Shown piece by piece: positions 13,499 through 45,753 of a DNA stretch of 52,102 nt. The notes under the pieces are model-generated. The model was not told where the DNA came from, did not search any database, and saw only the letters and a program-made list of their open reading frames with translations. The position numbers were made by a program, and so were the translations under genes. The DNA is taken from NCBI GenBank assembly GCA_001871165.1, contig MNUT01000002.1, forward strand, positions 1-52,102. The letters run 5' to 3'. This stretch comes from Candidatus Falkowbacteria bacterium CG1_02_37_21 (lineage in GTDB: Bacteria > Patescibacteriota > Patescibacteriia > Patescibacteriales > UBA12465). Numbering within the stretch: position 1 is the stretch's first letter; every line of letters starts with the position of its first letter.

Positions 13499-13550
13499 TT
13501 GTAAACACTGGGAGTTATAAATTTATAAATACCCTATACGGAGCGGGTAA

Positions 13551-13704
13551 CGGGAATTTCGCCCTCGCCGGCCGCCGGAATTGCGGCCGGCTCACTTGTC
13601 CTGGGTCAGCGCTAAGCATCCCCCGGATGCTTAGCGACGCTCGCCCGCTCGTTCCGGCTTCCGCCGTTCCCTCGCGTCTCGCTTCTGACCTGTTCGATTC
13701 CCGT
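13551..13704 (-). ncRNA. candidate structured RNA inside element A
   Basis: Stems covary with element B; GGAA tetraloop on minus strand; GC-rich in an AT-rich genome. Confidence 0.55.
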
Positions 13705-13709
13705 AAACT

Positions 13710-13756
13710 AACACAGCAAAAATAAAAACACAGGATAAAATCCTGTGTTTTTATTT
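13710..13756. terminator. 17-bp perfect palindrome, probable bidirectional terminator
   Basis: AAATAAAAACACAGGAT-AAA-ATCCTGTGTTTTTATTT. Confidence 0.7.
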
Positions 13757-13976
13757 GGAGCGGGTAACGGGAATCGAAAGGATAGGAACTATTTTTATAA
13801 TTTATTAAATAGTAGATAAATTTCTTTAATGTTAGAAATTTTTTCACATTTTCTAAGTTATCAGTTTTTATCTGAAATAATGGCTATTTACCACCTTTAC
13901 GTCACAATAGCGTCACACTTTATTTGTGAGGCGACAATATAGGAAGGGTGGTAGTAGTCATTCCTAAACTCATAGT

Positions 13977-14894
13977 TTAAATAATATAATTTAATATTCC
14001 CTTTTCAATCATTTCTAAACTAAAAATATAATCATTATGATTAAAGGCCTCTCTTAACGGCCTCGACGTTGATTTCCATCCGTTACCATCAGTAATCCAA
14101 ACAAATTTATATTGGCCATTTAAAACATTAAATAAATCCCTGTATTCACCGGCCGTTGATTTTAACTTTGAACCGCCACCACCATAAAAATTTGTTTCAA
14201 AAATTACTATATCTTTACCGGTGTTTATAACATAATCATAACGTCTAGAAGATTTATCAACCGGCACATCAAAACCCCATTCACTTTTTATTTTTTCCGA
14301 AGTTGCTTCTTTCAAATATTTAAAACCTTTAGTTTTACAAATATCGGCTATAAAAAAGCCGACAATATCTTCCATGGAATGGCCACCTCTATTTTTACGG
14401 CCGTTGCTATCAAGACCGGCCTCTACGCCAATCATATAATCAACCAGATTTTTAATTTTTTGGGAAATGATTAAATCTTTAAGGCCAGTTTCTTTTACAA
14501 ATAATAAATACTTATCAATATCTTTATCGGTTACCGCCTCTTTAGAAAAATCATAATCCTCATAAACTAGCTTTTTCTTTTTATAATCAACTAGAATTTT
14601 AAATTGATTTGTATTACCACCATCACGAACGACTAAAGCCGGAATAACTTTGATAATTTCTGGATTTTGTTTAACTAAAAACTTAAATTCTTTATCAAAA
14701 TCATCTTTGCCAATTAAATAATTAAGATTATTTAAAGCAATTTCTATTTTTCTGGTGTTTGTAAAAACTTTTTCCCAATTTACGAAATAAGACCAAAGCA
14801 TATTGCTTGGCTTGAGATTATTTAAAAAATAATCGAATACCTCGTCCTCGTTTTTACATCCCAAAACTTCATTATAAAATTTAAGAAATTTCAT
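13977..14894 (-). CDS. DpnII/MboI-like type II restriction endonuclease (GATC predicted)
   Basis: KNRGGHSMEDIVGFFIADIC; YDYVINTGKDIVIFETNFYGGGGSKLKSTAGEY; adjacent to MTase. Confidence 0.88.
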   Translation of the reverse strand: MKFLKFYNEVLGCKNEDEVFDYFLNNLKPSNMLWSYFVNWEKVFTNTRKIEIALNNLNYLIGKDDFDKEFKFLVKQNPEIIKVIPALVVRDGGNTNQFKILVDYKKKKLVYEDYDFSKEAVTDKDIDKYLLFVKETGLKDLIISQKIKNLVDYMIGVEAGLDSNGRKNRGGHSMEDIVGFFIADICKTKGFKYLKEATSEKIKSEWGFDVPVDKSSRRYDYVINTGKDIVIFETNFYGGGGSKLKSTAGEYRDLFNVLNGQYKFVWITDGNGWKSTSRPLREAFNHNDYIFSLEMIEKGILNYII

Positions 14895-14898
14895 AAAT

Positions 14899-15759
14899 TT
14901 ACTTAATTAAATCCTTATATCTCTTAACTGACAATTCTAAATAATTTTTTTCTAAATCAATACCAATAAATTTTCTATCGTTAAGAGCGCAGGCTAAACC
15001 AGTCGTTGAAGAACCCGTAAATGGGTCGATGACTAAATCACCTTTGTTGGTACTAGCCATAACAATACGAACCAATAGATCTATTGGCTTTTGTGTCGGG
15101 TGCTTACCAAACTTCTTTTCGGTAGGTTTCGGCGTCCCCATAGACCAAACACTGCGCATTTGCAGATTTGGCTTTTTTAAAAAGTCTTCTGGCCAATTAC
15201 CATTTTTCATTAAGTCATAATTAAACTTATGTTTAGTGGTTATTGGTTTTCCGGTTTTAGGATGGACTAATTCTTTTCTCGCCCAGATCAAAGTTTCATG
15301 ACTGGCCGTAAAAAAGCGACAGCTTAAATTTGGTGAAGCATTGGGTTTAAACCAGGCAATATCGTTTAAGATGTGAAACTTGCTAACTTGGAGAGCGAAA
15401 CCGCATTGATAGATAGAGTGATAGGTGCCGGAAATCCAAATTGTGCCTCCTGGCTTTAATACTCTATGGCAAGCCTTAATCCAGGCTAATTGAAACTCAA
15501 AGTCTTTCTTTAGACCATTACTGACGTCCCATTCGCCTTTATTAACGCTAACCATCCGCCCAGCGTGAACGGAAAAACCACCATTAGATAATAAATAAGG
15601 TGGATCAGCGAATATCATATCAACCGAGTTCTCTGGCAAAGTAGCTAAAAATTCCAAGCTATTGGCCTGGTACAATTTAAAGTCTTTATCTTTAAAAAAT
15701 GGATCTAACATTTTTTTGCTTTTTTTCTTAGTTTTTATAGCCTTTTTTGAGGTAGTCAT
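14899..15759 (-). CDS. site-specific DNA-methyltransferase (adenine), DpnA-like; start may be internal at ~15711
   Basis: MIFADPPYLLSNGG (DPPY), VIDPFTGSSTTGLACALNDRKFIGIDLE. Confidence 0.92.
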   Translation of the reverse strand: MTTSKKAIKTKKKSKKMLDPFFKDKDFKLYQANSLEFLATLPENSVDMIFADPPYLLSNGGFSVHAGRMVSVNKGEWDVSNGLKKDFEFQLAWIKACHRVLKPGGTIWISGTYHSIYQCGFALQVSKFHILNDIAWFKPNASPNLSCRFFTASHETLIWARKELVHPKTGKPITTKHKFNYDLMKNGNWPEDFLKKPNLQMRSVWSMGTPKPTEKKFGKHPTQKPIDLLVRIVMASTNKGDLVIDPFTGSSTTGLACALNDRKFIGIDLEKNYLELSVKRYKDLIK

Positions 15760-15894
15760 ATTATAGCAAATTGGATATGAAGAAAAGATAAAGTCCTATT
15801 CTCTGGCCTAATTTTACGATTTTTTTAGCCAAAAGTCAAAATAATAAAGGGGGCTATTAAACCCCCTTTAGTACCGAACTGTCAAAAACCAACC

Positions 15895-16200
15895 CTATTT
15901 AGTTATGGGCAAATTTAGGGGGCATTGATTTAGTGAAAGTAAGTTATTATTCCAGTCACCATCACTATACGTTCTAAGAAATGGATATCTTCCATCGTTT
16001 GGACGCACAACGCCGACATCAGACCTTTTATTATTTATTGGGTCTAATACATAAAAAGTGTTAGTTTTTTCGTCAATGCTTTTTATTACGGCTTCACGAG
16101 TCCACATCCAATTATTACTGGGATTCCCCACGTGAGTAATATGTTCGTGTGGACTGTTTCTATCAGGTTTTCTAATACAAGTAATTTGGCAATCTGCCAT
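15895..16200 (-). CDS. DUF3892-like protein
   Basis: HITHVGNPSNNWMWTREAVIKSI...FYVLDP...YPFLRTYSDGDWNNNLLSL. Confidence 0.7.
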   Translation of the reverse strand: MADCQITCIRKPDRNSPHEHITHVGNPSNNWMWTREAVIKSIDEKTNTFYVLDPINNKRSDVGVVRPNDGRYPFLRTYSDGDWNNNLLSLNQCPLNLPITK

Positions 16201-16225
16201 ATATTTTTAAATTAATTTATTAAAT

Positions 16226-16317
16226 TTGCTAAGATCTGAAAAACCTGTTATACTTTTTTTGCAATGAAGTAAATTAGGAAAAACACGTCATCTTAACTGG
16301 TGCTACGTGTTTTTTTG
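16226..16317 (+). ncRNA. candidate small RNA 1 (promoter TTGCTA-N17-TATACT; ends in hairpin + T7)
   Basis: AACACGT...ACGTGTTTTTTT. Confidence 0.35.
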
Positions 16318-16347
16318 ATCATAGAATTTTAGTATCATATTGATATG

Positions 16348-16481
16348 TTGACTTAATTAATTAAAACTATTAATATTGAATTAACAAAAAGCCATATAAA
16401 AAATTAGGATTTTCCTGATTTCTTGGCTTTCTGGCGAAAAGTAGACCTTATTGCTTTCCACGGCGCAAGGTCTATTTTTTT
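16348..16481 (+). ncRNA. candidate small RNA 2 (promoter TTGACT-N17-TAATAT; two hairpins + T7)
   Basis: AAGCC...GGCTT hairpin, then AGACCTT...AAGGTCT-ATTTTTTT. Confidence 0.45.
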
Positions 16482-16857
16482 ATTTAGTTACCTCTTTTAG
16501 ATCAATAACGTACATTTTTTCTCCATTATTATCAATTTCTTTAGGTGTATACCGTCCTACGTAATTCAAAAAATCAAAATTGTATTTTCCCCAAAATGAG
16601 TTAGACTTAAAATAACCACCCACACCCGAATTTCTTAGTTTTGCAGTTGCTGGTTCTGACGTTTTAAAAAATTTAAAACCAATCGCCAAATGTTCTCTAT
16701 CAAAAAATATCTTAAGAAAATGATAATCCGATAGATTATATTTATTCATAAACCCCGAACTAAATCCGAAGCCACCGTTTTGCCCAATACTAATTCGTGG
16801 GGCAAACTTGCCCTTATAATCAGTAAATTCATCAAAATTGTAATTATTTTCTTCCAT
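16480..16857 (-). CDS. hypothetical protein
   Basis: 125-aa ORF, plausible composition. Confidence 0.6.
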   Translation of the reverse strand: MEENNYNFDEFTDYKGKFAPRISIGQNGGFGFSSGFMNKYNLSDYHFLKIFFDREHLAIGFKFFKTSEPATAKLRNSGVGGYFKSNSFWGKYNFDFLNYVGRYTPKEIDNNGEKMYVIDLKEVTK

Positions 16858-17138
16858 ATAGTTTGACTTAATAATATAAATAATTGAATTATAGACATCC
16901 AGTAAGGTACTGAGATAAGTTTAGCAAATTGAAATTGTTTTGTCAAGATAGTAATAGTAAATGGTTAAGTAAAATGAACTGTCGCTAACATTAAACAAAA
17001 ATAAGCATTAATTTAAATAATAGTTGATAACTTGTTAATAACTAAATTGAACAGATAAGAATATTATAATACAATAAAGTAAACAACTAGCTATTATTAA
17101 TGTTGAGATTTTGATAACTAAAGTGATAAAATGCTAAC

Positions 17139-18197
17139 ATGACTGAAAAAGCCAAACAACTCAAAAAGAACCTGGATGTCATAATTGATGAATTTACTGA
17201 CGAATACTATAAGGTTTTATTTTCCCCAAAAAAGATGAAAGTAGGAAATAAGCTATCTATATCCTATGAGCTTCCTCGGCTTTTTGTAATTATTAAAAAA
17301 TACATAAGAGAAATTGAATCTAGCAGAATTTTGGACGGCTTTATGAAAGTCCTAAGACAAGAAGTAAAAGCAAATGATCATGACGGCTCACTATTCGGTG
17401 AAAATTTAAATAAAATAAAAAATAACAAAACAAAATCTTATAACTGGGCTTACTATTCTCTTTTTAAAGCAATGCTAGGAGAAGCAAGTGTTCTTGCGTC
17501 ATCTATGCAAAAAATATTAAAAACGGCTGATGTTAATTCTGCCAAGAAAATGCTAGAAAATACGCAAAAACAAATAGAAGAAATAAAGAACATGGAAGAA
17601 GAAATAATAAAACTGAACCTAGATACTATATTAAGGCCAAAAATATATAAAAAATTTCTTAAAGATTTTCATAAAAGCATTATTTCCTGGGTGAATGCCT
17701 ATATTATGACTTCTGAATTTATAGATGATGAAGAAACAATAACCAAAGAACCTTTAACTGATAAATGGGAAGATGTGGGAATAATATTTAATGATGATAT
17801 AAATATAAAATTAGTAATAGACAACAAAGAGGAAAATTCTGATTACGAAAAATTAGGATTTGCTGACACTAGACGTAATTTATTTAAAAAAGCTGTATAT
17901 GTTAAAAGTTGGAATATTCTAATGCTATTTTCTATTAGAAATGGAGTAATAAAAATGAGTGATTTCGCGGGAAACAAAAACAAAAAAGAACTATTTAAAA
18001 AAGACCGGCAAGACTTATCAAAAAGGCTTAAGCGTTATTTCGGGCTAGCAGACGATCCAATAGTCTATGAACCGGATGGCGAAAGATATCGAATCAGAAT
18101 AAAATTAACCCCATCGCCAGATTTTAGAGATTCCTACCTTGATCAAAAAAAGAAGATATCTGAATATAACAAAAAGGATTTTCTAGGAGATTACTAA
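17139..18197 (+). CDS. hypothetical element-encoded protein (possible C-terminal winged-helix-like region)
   Basis: 352-aa ORF; no family recognised. Confidence 0.7.
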   Translation: MTEKAKQLKKNLDVIIDEFTDEYYKVLFSPKKMKVGNKLSISYELPRLFVIIKKYIREIESSRILDGFMKVLRQEVKANDHDGSLFGENLNKIKNNKTKSYNWAYYSLFKAMLGEASVLASSMQKILKTADVNSAKKMLENTQKQIEEIKNMEEEIIKLNLDTILRPKIYKKFLKDFHKSIISWVNAYIMTSEFIDDEETITKEPLTDKWEDVGIIFNDDINIKLVIDNKEENSDYEKLGFADTRRNLFKKAVYVKSWNILMLFSIRNGVIKMSDFAGNKNKKELFKKDRQDLSKRLKRYFGLADDPIVYEPDGERYRIRIKLTPSPDFRDSYLDQKKKISEYNKKDFLGDY

Positions 18198-18229
18198 AGA
18201 AATTTCGTCGCTATTTCCCTGGCAATTTA

Positions 18230-18262
18230 ATCCTCTAACTTACCTAAAGTTAGGGGATTTTT
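18230..18262 (+). terminator. intrinsic terminator
   Basis: CCTCTAACTT-acct-AAAGTTAGGGG-ATTTTTTT. Confidence 0.65.
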
Positions 18263-18404
18263 TTATTGCCTAAGAAATTTCGTCCATATAGGTTAGGAGA
18301 CAATCAAAAAGGTCGAGCTCCTCACTAATTCTTAATTCTACTCATATGCTTTTTCGTCAAAAATTATTCCCAATAAACAAACGGTCTAGCGACTACTTAA
18401 TTCT

Positions 18405-18481
18405 TTGCCCGCCTTTCTGTTTTTTTCTTTTTCGGCGGCTACCCCGTGGGGGAGCCGAAAAAGAAAAACAGAGGCGGCAAG
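18405..18481. repeat. long imperfect inverted repeat upstream of rep, candidate replication origin
   Basis: GCCCGCCTTTCTGTTTTTTTCTTTTTCGGCGGCTACCCC / GGGGGAGCCGAAAAAGAAAAACAGAGGCGGCAAG. Confidence 0.65.
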
Positions 18482-18540
18482 ATATGCAACGCTTCATACC
18501 TGCTTATTAACTTGATTATATGCACACTTAAGAACACATC

Positions 18541-18760
18541 TATGTTTTACACTCCAAAACAAATATTCAAAGACCATGATTATCATTCCTGGCTTAAGGA
18601 ACGAATCCAAAATCTAGAGACGGCTATTAGCGAAAATATGCCCTGTGATAGCACCGATGACATGGAACTTTTGAAAAGAAAATTAGCCTCATACCGACAA
18701 GTCGAGGCTGATTTAGCCAAACAATATGGAATACAAAACGAAATGGATAGTAACCGGTGA
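18541..18760 (+). CDS. small hypothetical protein (start likely MFYTPKQ, not the GTG at 18446)
   Basis: Overlaps rep start; the upstream part of the ORF lies in the inverted repeat. Confidence 0.5.
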
Positions 18761-19418
18761 CCAGGTTGAAGTTTATAAAAATTCAGTCGGGATTAGGATT
18801 GGCAAACGCAAACATAAAAAGAAAAAGACGATTAAAAAAATAGTTAAAACTATCTCTAAAAAATTAAACGAATTTTCCGTTTACCGCACACGCCGAGCCA
18901 TTAAATGGCGCATTAATTCTAATCCCGATATGAATAAATTTTTAACCCTAACTTTTGCCGAAAATCTGACGGATCTCAAAAGTTGTAATGAAAAATTTAA
19001 AGCCTTTATTAGAAAATTAAAAACGATTAAAGAGAATTTGAAATATTTAGTCGTCCCGGAATTTCAGAAACGTGGTGCCGTTCATTATCACGCCTTGCTC
19101 AATCTTGACTACATCGACCAAAAACAATTAGCGGATTTATGGGGTCATGGATTTATTAAGATTAAAAATATTAAAGACGGAATTAATATGGGTTTATATG
19201 TTTCAAAATATATCGGCAAGGATTTAGAGGATGAACGATACTTCAATAACAAAAAATACTTCTGTTCTCGCAACTTAGACAAACCTATGATTTTTTATTC
19301 ACGAGATGAAATTGATAATTTTTTACAGCTTAATTCTTTGACCCCGACTTACGAAAAAACGTTTCAAAGCTATTATGGCTTGATAAATTATCAACTTTTC
19401 AAATTAGACAAAAAATAA
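18726..19418 (+). CDS. HUH-superfamily replication initiator (rolling-circle Rep, phage-type)
   Basis: FLTLTF (motif 1), PEFQKRGAVHYHALLNL (HUH motif), YVSKYIGKD (YxxxY motif). Confidence 0.82.
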   Translation: MEYKTKWIVTGDQVEVYKNSVGIRIGKRKHKKKKTIKKIVKTISKKLNEFSVYRTRRAIKWRINSNPDMNKFLTLTFAENLTDLKSCNEKFKAFIRKLKTIKENLKYLVVPEFQKRGAVHYHALLNLDYIDQKQLADLWGHGFIKIKNIKDGINMGLYVSKYIGKDLEDERYFNNKKYFCSRNLDKPMIFYSRDEIDNFLQLNSLTPTYEKTFQSYYGLINYQLFKLDKK

Positions 19419-19492
19419 AATTGGTAATAGAGTAATACTGTGACTGGCGTAATCCCGTTTTACGTTCCTGTATTGCTCTTTAATAACTTAAT

Positions 19493-19690
19493 ATGTCAAT
19501 TGACCTAACTACAATTGAATTTCTAACTACTGAGCAATTAGCAGGTCTATTAAATATTTCTAAAACTTCTATATATCGTCTAATTGGAAATCGTTTAATT
19601 CCTTTCTACAAACTCGGCCACAATATACGCTTCAAAAAAGCTGATGTTTTGGATTACTTAGAAAAAAATTGTCTTAGGCCGATTTCATGA
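19493..19690 (+). CDS. excisionase-family HTH DNA-binding protein
   Basis: EFLTTEQLAGLLNISKTSIYRLIGNRLIPFYKLGHNIRFKKADVLDYLE. Confidence 0.88.
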   Translation: MSIDLTTIEFLTTEQLAGLLNISKTSIYRLIGNRLIPFYKLGHNIRFKKADVLDYLEKNCLRPIS

Positions 19691-19701
19691 TTATATGATT
19701 T

Positions 19702-20871
19702 ATGAGTATCTATAAACGAAAAAATAAATGGTGGGTAGACTTTAGCTTTCAAAATAAACGCTATCGTTTCTGTAGTCCGGAAAATTCCGCTAGTGGTGCT
19801 AGAGCTTATGAGGGATTATTAAGACAAGGCCTATTAAAAGGAGAAAATATTTCTACCAAAATAGAGCCCTGTCCAGTTTTTTCAGCTTTCGCCGAAAAAT
19901 GGTTTATCAATTATGTTAAATCAAATAATAAGTTCTCTGAGTACTGCAATAAACAAAGCGTTTATAAAGTCCACCTTGAACCATTTTTTGGTAAATTAAG
20001 TCTTGATCAAATTACAGCTTATAAGATAGAAGAATTTAAGGCATTAAAGACCCAGTCTACTCTTGCCCCTAAAACTATCAATAAGATGCTCTCAACCCTC
20101 AGGAAAGCCTTAAATACGGCAGAGGAGTGGGGTTTACTAGTTTCTGTGCCCAAAATTAAGCTTCTAAAAGTACCACCTCAAAAATTTGATTATCTTTTAC
20201 CAGAAGAAGAAGACTTTCTACTAGAAAACACCGAAGGCATATGGCACAATATGATTCTATTAGCTCTTAAGACCGGATTAAGATTTGGCGAGATAATTGC
20301 TTTAAACTGGGAAGACATTGATTTCTCAAATAAACTCCTAACCGTTCGCCATTCCATTGTTCGAGGAATAATGGGAAGTCCAAAAAGTAACAAGATTAGA
20401 TATATTCCAATGACTGATTCTTTATTGGAAATGCTTTGGAATAAATCAAAAAATGAAGATTATATTTTTACTCTAGGAAACAATAAACCAATGAAGCAAA
20501 TTTATTGTTTAAAAAATATGACTCGCATTTGTAAGAAATTAAATATACGCAAAATAGGTTGGCACGTTTTACGCCATACTTTTGCTTCACGCCTAGCAAA
20601 CAACGGAGTTTCTATGAAAGTTATTCAAGAACTTTTAGGCCACTCCGATATTACCACGACAATGCGCTATGCTCATTTGTCGCCGATCACTCTTCGAGAA
20701 TCTATACGCACTTTAGATAATCGAAAAGCCATTGAATTAGAGATATGTCACAAAAATGTCACAAATGTCACAATCACTAATTTAAAAGAGACGGATTTAG
20801 CTCCGGTTAAATCTCAAATTTTCCCCGAAGATAAACAAAAACAGACATCTCTGTCTGTTAATGTTTTGTGA
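19702..20871 (+). CDS. tyrosine-type recombinase/integrase
   Basis: TGLRFGEIIALNWEDID, WHVLRHTFASRLANNGVSMKVIQELLGHSDITTTMRYAH. Confidence 0.95.
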   Translation: MSIYKRKNKWWVDFSFQNKRYRFCSPENSASGARAYEGLLRQGLLKGENISTKIEPCPVFSAFAEKWFINYVKSNNKFSEYCNKQSVYKVHLEPFFGKLSLDQITAYKIEEFKALKTQSTLAPKTINKMLSTLRKALNTAEEWGLLVSVPKIKLLKVPPQKFDYLLPEEEDFLLENTEGIWHNMILLALKTGLRFGEIIALNWEDIDFSNKLLTVRHSIVRGIMGSPKSNKIRYIPMTDSLLEMLWNKSKNEDYIFTLGNNKPMKQIYCLKNMTRICKKLNIRKIGWHVLRHTFASRLANNGVSMKVIQELLGHSDITTTMRYAHLSPITLRESIRTLDNRKAIELEICHKNVTNVTITNLKETDLAPVKSQIFPEDKQKQTSLSVNVL

Positions 20872-20942
20872 GCGGGTAACGGGAATCGAACCCGTCTCTT
20901 GAACTTGGCAAGCTCACATAATAACCACTATACGATACCCGC
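20871..20942 (-). tRNA. tRNA-Gly (GCC)
   Basis: GCGGGTATCGTATAGTGGTTATTATGTGAGCTTGCCAAGTTCAAGAGACGGGTTCGATTCCCGTTACCCGCT. Confidence 0.95.
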
Positions 20943-45178: not shown

Positions 45179-45468
45179 AGTATAATGGACAGGAACGGGA
45201 AAGTCAACAATAATTAGCACTTATGGACGATTAAGAAACCCTAATAGAATACAAGGATAAATATCAGCTCAAATGGAGGAAATTTTTATGGACAAATTAG
45301 CCTATCCAAACCATCATTCCTTCACCGATCATCAGAGGCTTAATGCAGGCCGAGGACATGGTCTTTACCAAGAAATACAAAAATCCCAACAAATTAATTA
45401 AGCTTTGGATTAGAATTGAAGTCAATCAACCGAACTTGGTTATATTAGATACCGTTTGGGGTGCCTAT

Positions 45469-45623
45469 CGGGAATTAGCGCGCTCAACCGCCGCCAGAAT
45501 TGCGGCGGTCTCGCTTGTCCAGGGTTGGCGTCCGATATGCCACCCGGCATATCGTCCGACGCTCTCCTTTTCGCTATTTCTTCCGAAATAGCTCAAGACT
45601 CGCTGCCAACCTGTCCGATTCCC
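45469..45623 (-). ncRNA. candidate structured RNA inside element B
   Basis: Same ordered helices and loops as element A with compensatory stem changes. Confidence 0.55.
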
Positions 45624-45637
45624 CGCGACTACGTCGC

Positions 45638-45680
45638 TATAATAAAAATAATCCAGAAAATTCTGGATTATTTTTATTAT
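45638..45680. terminator. 20-bp perfect palindrome downstream of tRNA-His
   Basis: ATAATAAAAATAATCCAGAA-AA-TTCTGGATTATTTTTATTAT. Confidence 0.7.
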
Positions 45681-45681
45681 G

Positions 45682-45753
45682 GGTGCCTATCGGGAATCGG
45701 ACCCGAAATAACAGGACCACAACCTGCTGTGTTACCACTACACCATAGGCACC
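45682..45753 (-). tRNA. tRNA-His (GTG)
   Basis: G-1/C73 pair; anticodon loop TTGTGGT; T-arm CGGGTCCGATTCCCG. Confidence 0.93.

Follow-up and report, generated by a model that had tools for sequence, protein, structure and literature searches.

The 52,102-nucleotide window analysed here (contig MNUT01000002.1 of assembly GCA_001871165.1, Candidatus Falkowbacteria bacterium CG1_02_37_21) carries, directly behind a tRNA-His gene, a short structured sequence that we will refer to as element B. Its description as a mobile, tRNA-anchored, gene-free cassette is well supported, and it is part of a group, numbering well over a hundred, of related mobile sequences in Patescibacteria that are inserted after tRNA genes and leave the tRNA unbroken. 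Element B is probably a geneless cassette of a tRNA-anchored, integron-like system whose units are moved in trans. The original prediction, made from the window sequence, had likened the repeats at its ends to attL and attR and proposed either a non-autonomous integrative element or a tRNA-linked non-coding RNA (ncRNA); empty tRNA-His sites, which it had suggested looking for in related genomes, have now settled the integrative part of this proposal.

Positions 45459-45680 are an insertion of exactly 222 bp, comprising a 205-bp gene-free element and a 17-bp copy of tRNA-His A58-C74. The tRNA-His of G009, a genome from another genus, directly adjoins the sequence that lies beyond the element in the window, and removal of the 222 bp from the window yields an ungapped BLAST alignment of 111 bp at 94.6% identity across the joint. 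A third genus offers the same comparison, with tRNA-His filled in G003 and empty in G001; the difference is again exactly 222 bp, and its removal leaves 132 bp of ungapped alignment (96.2%). The two 17-bp copies (ATTCCCGATAGGCACCC) are 100% identical and spaced exactly 222 bp apart. Because these 17 nt are duplicated, the tRNA stays intact after insertion, so that element B shows both an insertion at a tRNA 3' end and a tRNA-restoring repeat.

Coordinates of the parts are collected in Table 1; those originally assigned to tRNA-His, the repeats, the palindrome and the inverted T-arm copy all hold. The core, on the minus strand, is GC-rich, with three hairpins around a central stem. The inverted T-arm copy, GTCCGATTCCC at 45613-45623, is perfect across 11 nt. 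The palindrome, first described as 20 bp and perfect, does have perfect 20-nt arms, but measures 42 bp as a whole with its 2-nt centre; we read it as a bidirectional terminator, and a simple terminator scan did not call it. Compared with shuffles, the 222-nt unit folds far better, both as RNA (z -8.6) and as DNA (z -8.2). A search for open reading frames (ORFs) within the 222 bp returned nothing convincing, as had been expected, and a promoter scan inside the element gave no match. No Rfam family matches element B at the gathering score. At permissive E-values the only hits were microRNA models fitting the palindrome and one small RNA model at chance level, all of which were rejected.

BLAST revealed further relatives of element B in the same genome, one of which follows tRNA-Glu and is accompanied by a copy of that gene's 3' end. 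A covariance model built from four copies, the search originally called for, identified nine copies in the source genome and about 90 in the taxonomic family, where 26 of 39 genomes carry them. Copies also occur in 42 of 111 genomes of the order, in at least 53 of 380 genomes sampled from the class and in at least 11 of 379 from the phylum, the last two counts being lower bounds because few candidates were scored per genome. The layout of element B is far beyond chance, given its recurrence in the roughly 90 copies of the family. Named records confirmed by the model come from Candidatus Falkowbacteria, Buchananbacteria, Kerfeldbacteria and their relatives, the exception being one contig filed as Bacteroidales (L197, JAQUBO010000330.1). 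Its copies share model score, length and GC content with locus L190, a Patescibacteria sequence obtained from that same sample, and the contig is probably misbinned. Motif matches in SAR86, Sphingomonas, Prevotella and other groups beyond Patescibacteria failed confirmation by the covariance model, as did two pattern matches from a motif search of viral contigs; a blastn search of a phage collection gave no match to the element.

Many of these homologues are anchored to tRNA genes, and they carry the matching flanking duplication. Of the three observations originally named as refuting, namely a known Rfam family, a lack of further tRNA-anchored homologues and homologues without tRNA 3' duplications, none was made. 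Where a tRNA is identifiable, nearly all copies begin about 50-60 nt beyond its 3' end, and larger gaps are explained by other inserts. Fifteen isotypes are represented among 68 distinct tRNA-adjacent copies, a single additional locus adds tRNA-Tyr, and ends of Leu or Pro type appear on other copies. In most intact copies the repeat spans precisely A58-C74; the 17-nt match is found in 36 of the 68. In well-preserved copies a palindrome stands directly behind the tRNA; its sequence differs from copy to copy.

The inverted T-arm copy of the original prediction recurs across the family as a tRNA-following segment, here called the guide, a 12-nt sequence that is the reverse complement of tRNA positions 53-63. 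Guides match their own tRNA over a mean of 10.75 nt, compared with 7.20 +/- 0.25 when shuffled, and none of 20,000 shuffles reached the observed mean. Position 59 is the most telling, with 98% identity against 42% expected. Positions 53-57 lie outside the duplicated 17 nt, and in tRNAs that are unusual there the guide matches in six of seven cases. Outside the family, guides match two tRNA-Cys with different T-stems, a tRNA-Met with TTCAAAT and a tRNA-Gln with TTCGACT. In a DNA fold, T-arm and guide form a perfect 11-bp stem enclosing the palindrome in single-stranded DNA (z -8.4). In tRNA-His and tRNA-Gly genes at 45681-45752 and at loci L068, L069 and L117, C replaces the nearly universal T55 and the guide has changed to match, the tRNA-His guide of the window including the C55 variant of its own tRNA. 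Such guides may reflect homogenisation of an inverted repeat or compensatory change.

Some tRNAs are trailed by several units in an array. Behind tRNA-Ser, one-gene cassettes end in GTTCCAACTACGTCCC, followed by the tRNA tail; this junction pattern has 55 matches in 20 of the 39 genomes, against four for a reversed control. The nearest ORF upstream of a junction is co-oriented in 43 of 46 cases and its stop lies less than 100 nt away in 39, at a median distance of 23.5 nt. Cargo includes nitroreductase, HIT, NUDIX, HAD, short-chain dehydrogenase, exo/endonuclease-phosphatase, peptidase S51 and Fic proteins, together with a weak ART-PolyVal-like match; no recombinase or integrase occurs among the array proteins inspected. 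A protein family weakly similar to ART-PolyVal ADP-ribosyltransferases is a recurrent cassette gene in arrays of different genomes (L053, L077 and L105). Some cassettes are also shared between genomes. For instance, a 1.2-kb cassette that directly follows tRNA-Ser as the first unit in G035 stands behind a dehydrogenase cassette in G024 (87% identity), and a dehydrogenase cassette is common to G030 and G024; in both pairs similarity stops at the junctions. At the start of many cassettes, visual inspection shows a hairpin resembling a terminator and a TATAAT-like box. Since the structured elements are found within these arrays, the best reading is that they, too, are cassettes of this system, only without a gene. 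Between the two kinds, the ends are alike only in part (GGGA...TTGG / CCAA...TCCC), and the link is strong by position and moderate by sequence. An inverted repeat downstream of the protein-cassette junctions, TTTGGAACGA, exceeds its frequency in shuffles by a modest margin, and no conclusion here depends on it.

Comparison with known systems places these units nearest to integron cassettes, which likewise hold a single co-oriented gene per unit whose end lies shortly before the recombination boundary, form arrays, lack an internal recombinase, have foldable single-strand sites and are common to different genomes. Integron cassettes are promoterless and read from one platform promoter (PMC8946536), whereas those described here apparently have their own terminator and promoter, include gene-free members with a large conserved fold and have a tRNA-dependent site sequence. 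Their platform is a tRNA gene (at least 15 isotypes), many per genome, instead of intI-attI; there is no IntI, and no GTTRRRY/RYYYAAC attC pairs were noted. In integrons, attC sites carry R''-L''-L'-R' boxes and recombine through their folded bottom strand; here a strong foldable site is present, and the standard boxes were not seen by eye. The system has the co-oriented single-gene array of an integron without its integrase and platform, and element B likely works like an integron cassette. Genomic islands targeted to tRNA genes, cis-mobilisable elements and tycheposons also insert at a tRNA 3' end and restore the tRNA, and cis-mobilisable elements carry cargo without an integrase. The present units differ from all of these in size (about 0.2-2 kb), in the conserved folded gene-free class, in the inverted T-arm copy and in the one-gene arrays, and neither element B nor the array proteins inspected include the carried integrase of a tRNA-targeted element. 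XerCD pdif modules and Xer-exploiting elements are moved in trans by a housekeeping tyrosine recombinase; if a Xer enzyme acts here, the recombinase-less units would resemble them, but with sites drawn from tRNA genes of many isotypes and not from dif. The bridge RNA or seekRNA elements of IS110 likewise combine a structured element with target-complementary sequence; in contrast, the helices here are DNA-like, the boundary is a 17-bp identity, and no transposase or IS110 ends were seen. The open-access literature contains no description of tRNA-anchored cassettes in this group that we could find (subscription journals and preprints fell outside the search), in keeping with the original statement that no such layout was known; that element B belongs to cassette arrays with protein genes was not visible to the original prediction.

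The sequences themselves show the insertion with its exact boundaries, the family, the matching to the tRNA, the structure, the arrays containing one-gene cassettes and the cassettes common to several genomes, whereas present-day activity, substrate and enzyme are inferred. Each unit consists in order of tRNA positions 58-74, the putative bidirectional terminator, the anti-T-arm guide, the folded core and the right end, and the right end abuts the next 58-74 copy so that the tRNA is kept whole on insertion. In the proposed mechanism, the hairpin of T-arm and guide in single-stranded DNA would create a folded recombination site, and a recombinase acting in trans would exchange units by joining them at the T-loop and 3' end of a matching tRNA. 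Element B would then be a mobile gene-free cassette of this integron-like system, in which excision and integration are presumably active today. That the folded single strand is the actual recombination substrate is a tentative proposal, to which we give somewhat less than even weight. A tyrosine recombinase is proposed as the mover because serine, Y1 and integron enzymes fail as candidates and a XerC/D-like enzyme is nearly universal. Genes for tyrosine recombinases occur in 37 of the 39 genomes of the family; a XerC/D-like one is found in nearly all genomes, with copies or without, and is the near-universal tyrosine recombinase of the source genome (G000), where its gene lies at C12:45136-46092. 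No genome among the 111 of the order has an integron integrase above the TIGR02249 cut-off. The Xer-like enzyme is the only constant candidate, and its role as the mover is at present doubtful. In its broadest form, close to an even bet in our view and slightly short of one, the proposal is that Patescibacteria possess a cassette-capture platform of their own, independent of integron integrases, in which ordinary tRNA genes serve as insertion sites, the inverted T-arm copy sets the target by folding onto the tRNA gene in single-stranded DNA, and gene-free elements are the minimal units.

The fold itself bears on whether the core acts as DNA or as RNA. Across the family core, 91.2% of cells form standard pairs, compared with 37-41% in slid controls, and 41 of 42 pairs have changes on both sides; judged by this alignment, the core is under strong structural constraint. 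Such covariation, together with a mostly conserved GGAA-type loop, tandem G-A motifs and a guide antisense to the T-arm, would suit a transcribed ncRNA whose guide pairs with the T-arm, regulating processing or guiding an insertion enzyme in the manner of bridge RNAs. RNA helices usually tolerate G-U far better than A-C. The inner helices contain 1.7% G-T and 1.0% A-C cells, and the tRNA stems at the same loci, the sole control, 4.9% and 0.9% (Fisher p 0.0013 and 8e-9, with one conserved T-G position and the outer stem set aside); the wobble rate is one third of that of the tRNA stems, and G-T is barely better tolerated than A-C. In well-preserved copies a terminator-like palindrome also stands between tRNA and core, so that a promoter would have only some 12 nt, and the promoter scan matched nothing inside the element. 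Because of these three observations a DNA function is more likely than an RNA function, although the argument is an indirect one, and the original alternative of an RNA antisense to the T-arm fares poorly; we regard a tRNA-linked ncRNA as quite improbable. A group I intron, with the guide as internal guide sequence, was rejected as well, since no match to a group I family was obtained and the terminator-like palindrome stands between the tRNA and the core.

Decay of larger elements could also leave short pieces behind tRNA genes. Islands lose their integrase and may leave att-flanked, cis-mobilisable remnants stacked at one tRNA; tyrosine integrases typically show an identity block that runs from the T-loop to the tRNA 3' end, an integrase element of 7 kb does exist at tRNA-Gly in the window and adjoins a second member of the family, and integrase is absent from the arrays inspected. 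Nevertheless, decay would not yield one folded core with 41 of 42 pairs compensated at many isotypes throughout the class. Nor would it give units with a single co-oriented gene that stops about 24 nt short of the junction, or a guide that changes with the tRNA, and the origin of these units as stacked remnants is unlikely. A transposon with folded ends, either IS200/IS605-like or a miniature inverted-repeat transposable element mobilised by RAYT, would account for the foldable single strand, the guide-like internal sequence and the multiple copies, its ends pairing while a Y1 transposase moves the single strand. Y1 transposase genes, however, occur in nine of the 39 genomes and are absent from most carriers, including the source genome, and insertion restricted to tRNA genes with a 17-bp identity is unlike both families, which makes this explanation very hard to sustain. 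The co-oriented one-gene cassettes, folded sites and shuffling would be expected of a true integron whose integrase escaped detection and whose attC sites have diverged; with no integron integrase above the cut-off in the 111 genomes of the order, a tRNA gene as the platform and cassettes that apparently bring their own promoter and terminator, we give this reading almost no credence.

Several observations weigh against a mobile cassette system as proposed here. A check originally suggested was whether every copy lies 3' of a matching tRNA; this holds for nearly all copies with an identifiable tRNA, and some degenerate or truncated copies have neither a recognisable tRNA nor a distal copy. All genomes are environmental assemblies, many of them ending at these repeats, and the ends of arrays are often missing. 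Homogenisation of inverted repeats, as opposed to selection, could be a partial source of the guide match. The protein-cassette junction is characterised mainly at tRNA-Ser, and its ends are shared only in part with the structured element. No recombinase has so far been tied to the cassettes. Tyrosine recombinases occur in genomes that have copies and in genomes that lack them, and neither serine recombinases nor Y1 transposases follow the distribution of the element.

Little is known about the way in which streamlined, host-dependent Patescibacteria gain genes. If true, a cassette system with tRNA genes as ports would show where accessory genes enter and make them easier to find. It would also be a solution of the integron type that dispenses with an integron integrase, and its target code would be readable, tRNA-dependent and open to direct testing. 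The covariance model and the A58-C74 boundary rule allow simple mapping of sites in thousands of genomes.

Table 1. Features of element B at tRNA-His and of the related tRNA-Gly locus in the window
Feature	Position	Strand	Basis
tRNA-His (GTG), attachment platform	45681..45752	minus	ARAGORN and Rfam; empty site in G009
First direct-repeat copy, last 17 nt of tRNA-His (A58-C74)	45681-45697	minus	repeat comparison
A/T-rich 42-bp palindrome directly 3' of tRNA-His, with A and T runs on both sides	45639..45680	none	sequence, family comparison, DNA fold
Arms of the palindrome, 20 nt each, 100% complementary, centre 2 nt	45639-45658 and 45661-45680		
Short hairpin AGCGACGTAGTCGC between palindrome and guide	45625..45638	minus	RNA and DNA folds
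Guide GGGGAATCGGAC, reverse complement of tRNA-His T-arm (11/12 nt)	45613..45624	minus	
Central stem, 5' arm AGGTTGGC	45605..45612	minus	helix 2, compensatory change in 6/6 pairs
Hairpin 1, conserved GCGAG...GGAA-type loop...GAGCGTC	45558..45604	minus	family alignment, covariation
Hairpin 2	45529..45557	minus	compensatory change in 10/10 pairs
Central stem, 3' arm CCAACC	45523..45528	minus	covariation
Conserved GGACAAGYGAG, hairpin 3 and GAGCGCG	45479..45520	minus	family alignment, covariation
Distal 17-bp copy of tRNA-His A58-C74, right boundary of insertion	45459..45475	minus	repeat; comparison with G009
Element A, second family member, same layout, guide matching tRNA-Gly	13541..13757	minus	
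Distal copy of element A, ATTCCCGTTACCCGCTC	13541-13557	minus	
tRNA-Gly 3' end copy before element A, also far attachment site of the integrase-bearing element	13758..13774	minus	

The second member of the family in the window, element A, is real, as first proposed, and lies beside a copy of the tRNA-Gly 3' end. A 7-kb element at tRNA-Gly (13758-20942) carries a tyrosine integrase (19702-20871, plus strand) and reaches the tRNA-Gly gene at 20870-20942; its insertion between tRNA-Gly and element A seems to be the later event. Its far attachment copy stands directly before element A, so two kinds of element have successively used one tRNA. In other genomes, tRNA-His genes at seven loci (L239, L242, L246, L254, L256, L261 and L262) are followed by a common terminator-like start, GAAAAGACGAGTYTAAAAGCTCGTTTTTTC, with divergent sequence downstream. 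No distal tRNA copy was found within 1.5 kb at these loci, and units with this start may be another class of cassette. The GIY-YIG family, considered as a mobiliser, shows no correlation with the element. At one locus of contig C16 of genome G000 (L009:150-527), 30 bp from the 5' part of tRNA-Glu are duplicated and flank a GIY-YIG ORF, which lies directly upstream of an intact tRNA-Glu that bears a structured element; this arrangement is a mirror image of the tRNA insertions described above.
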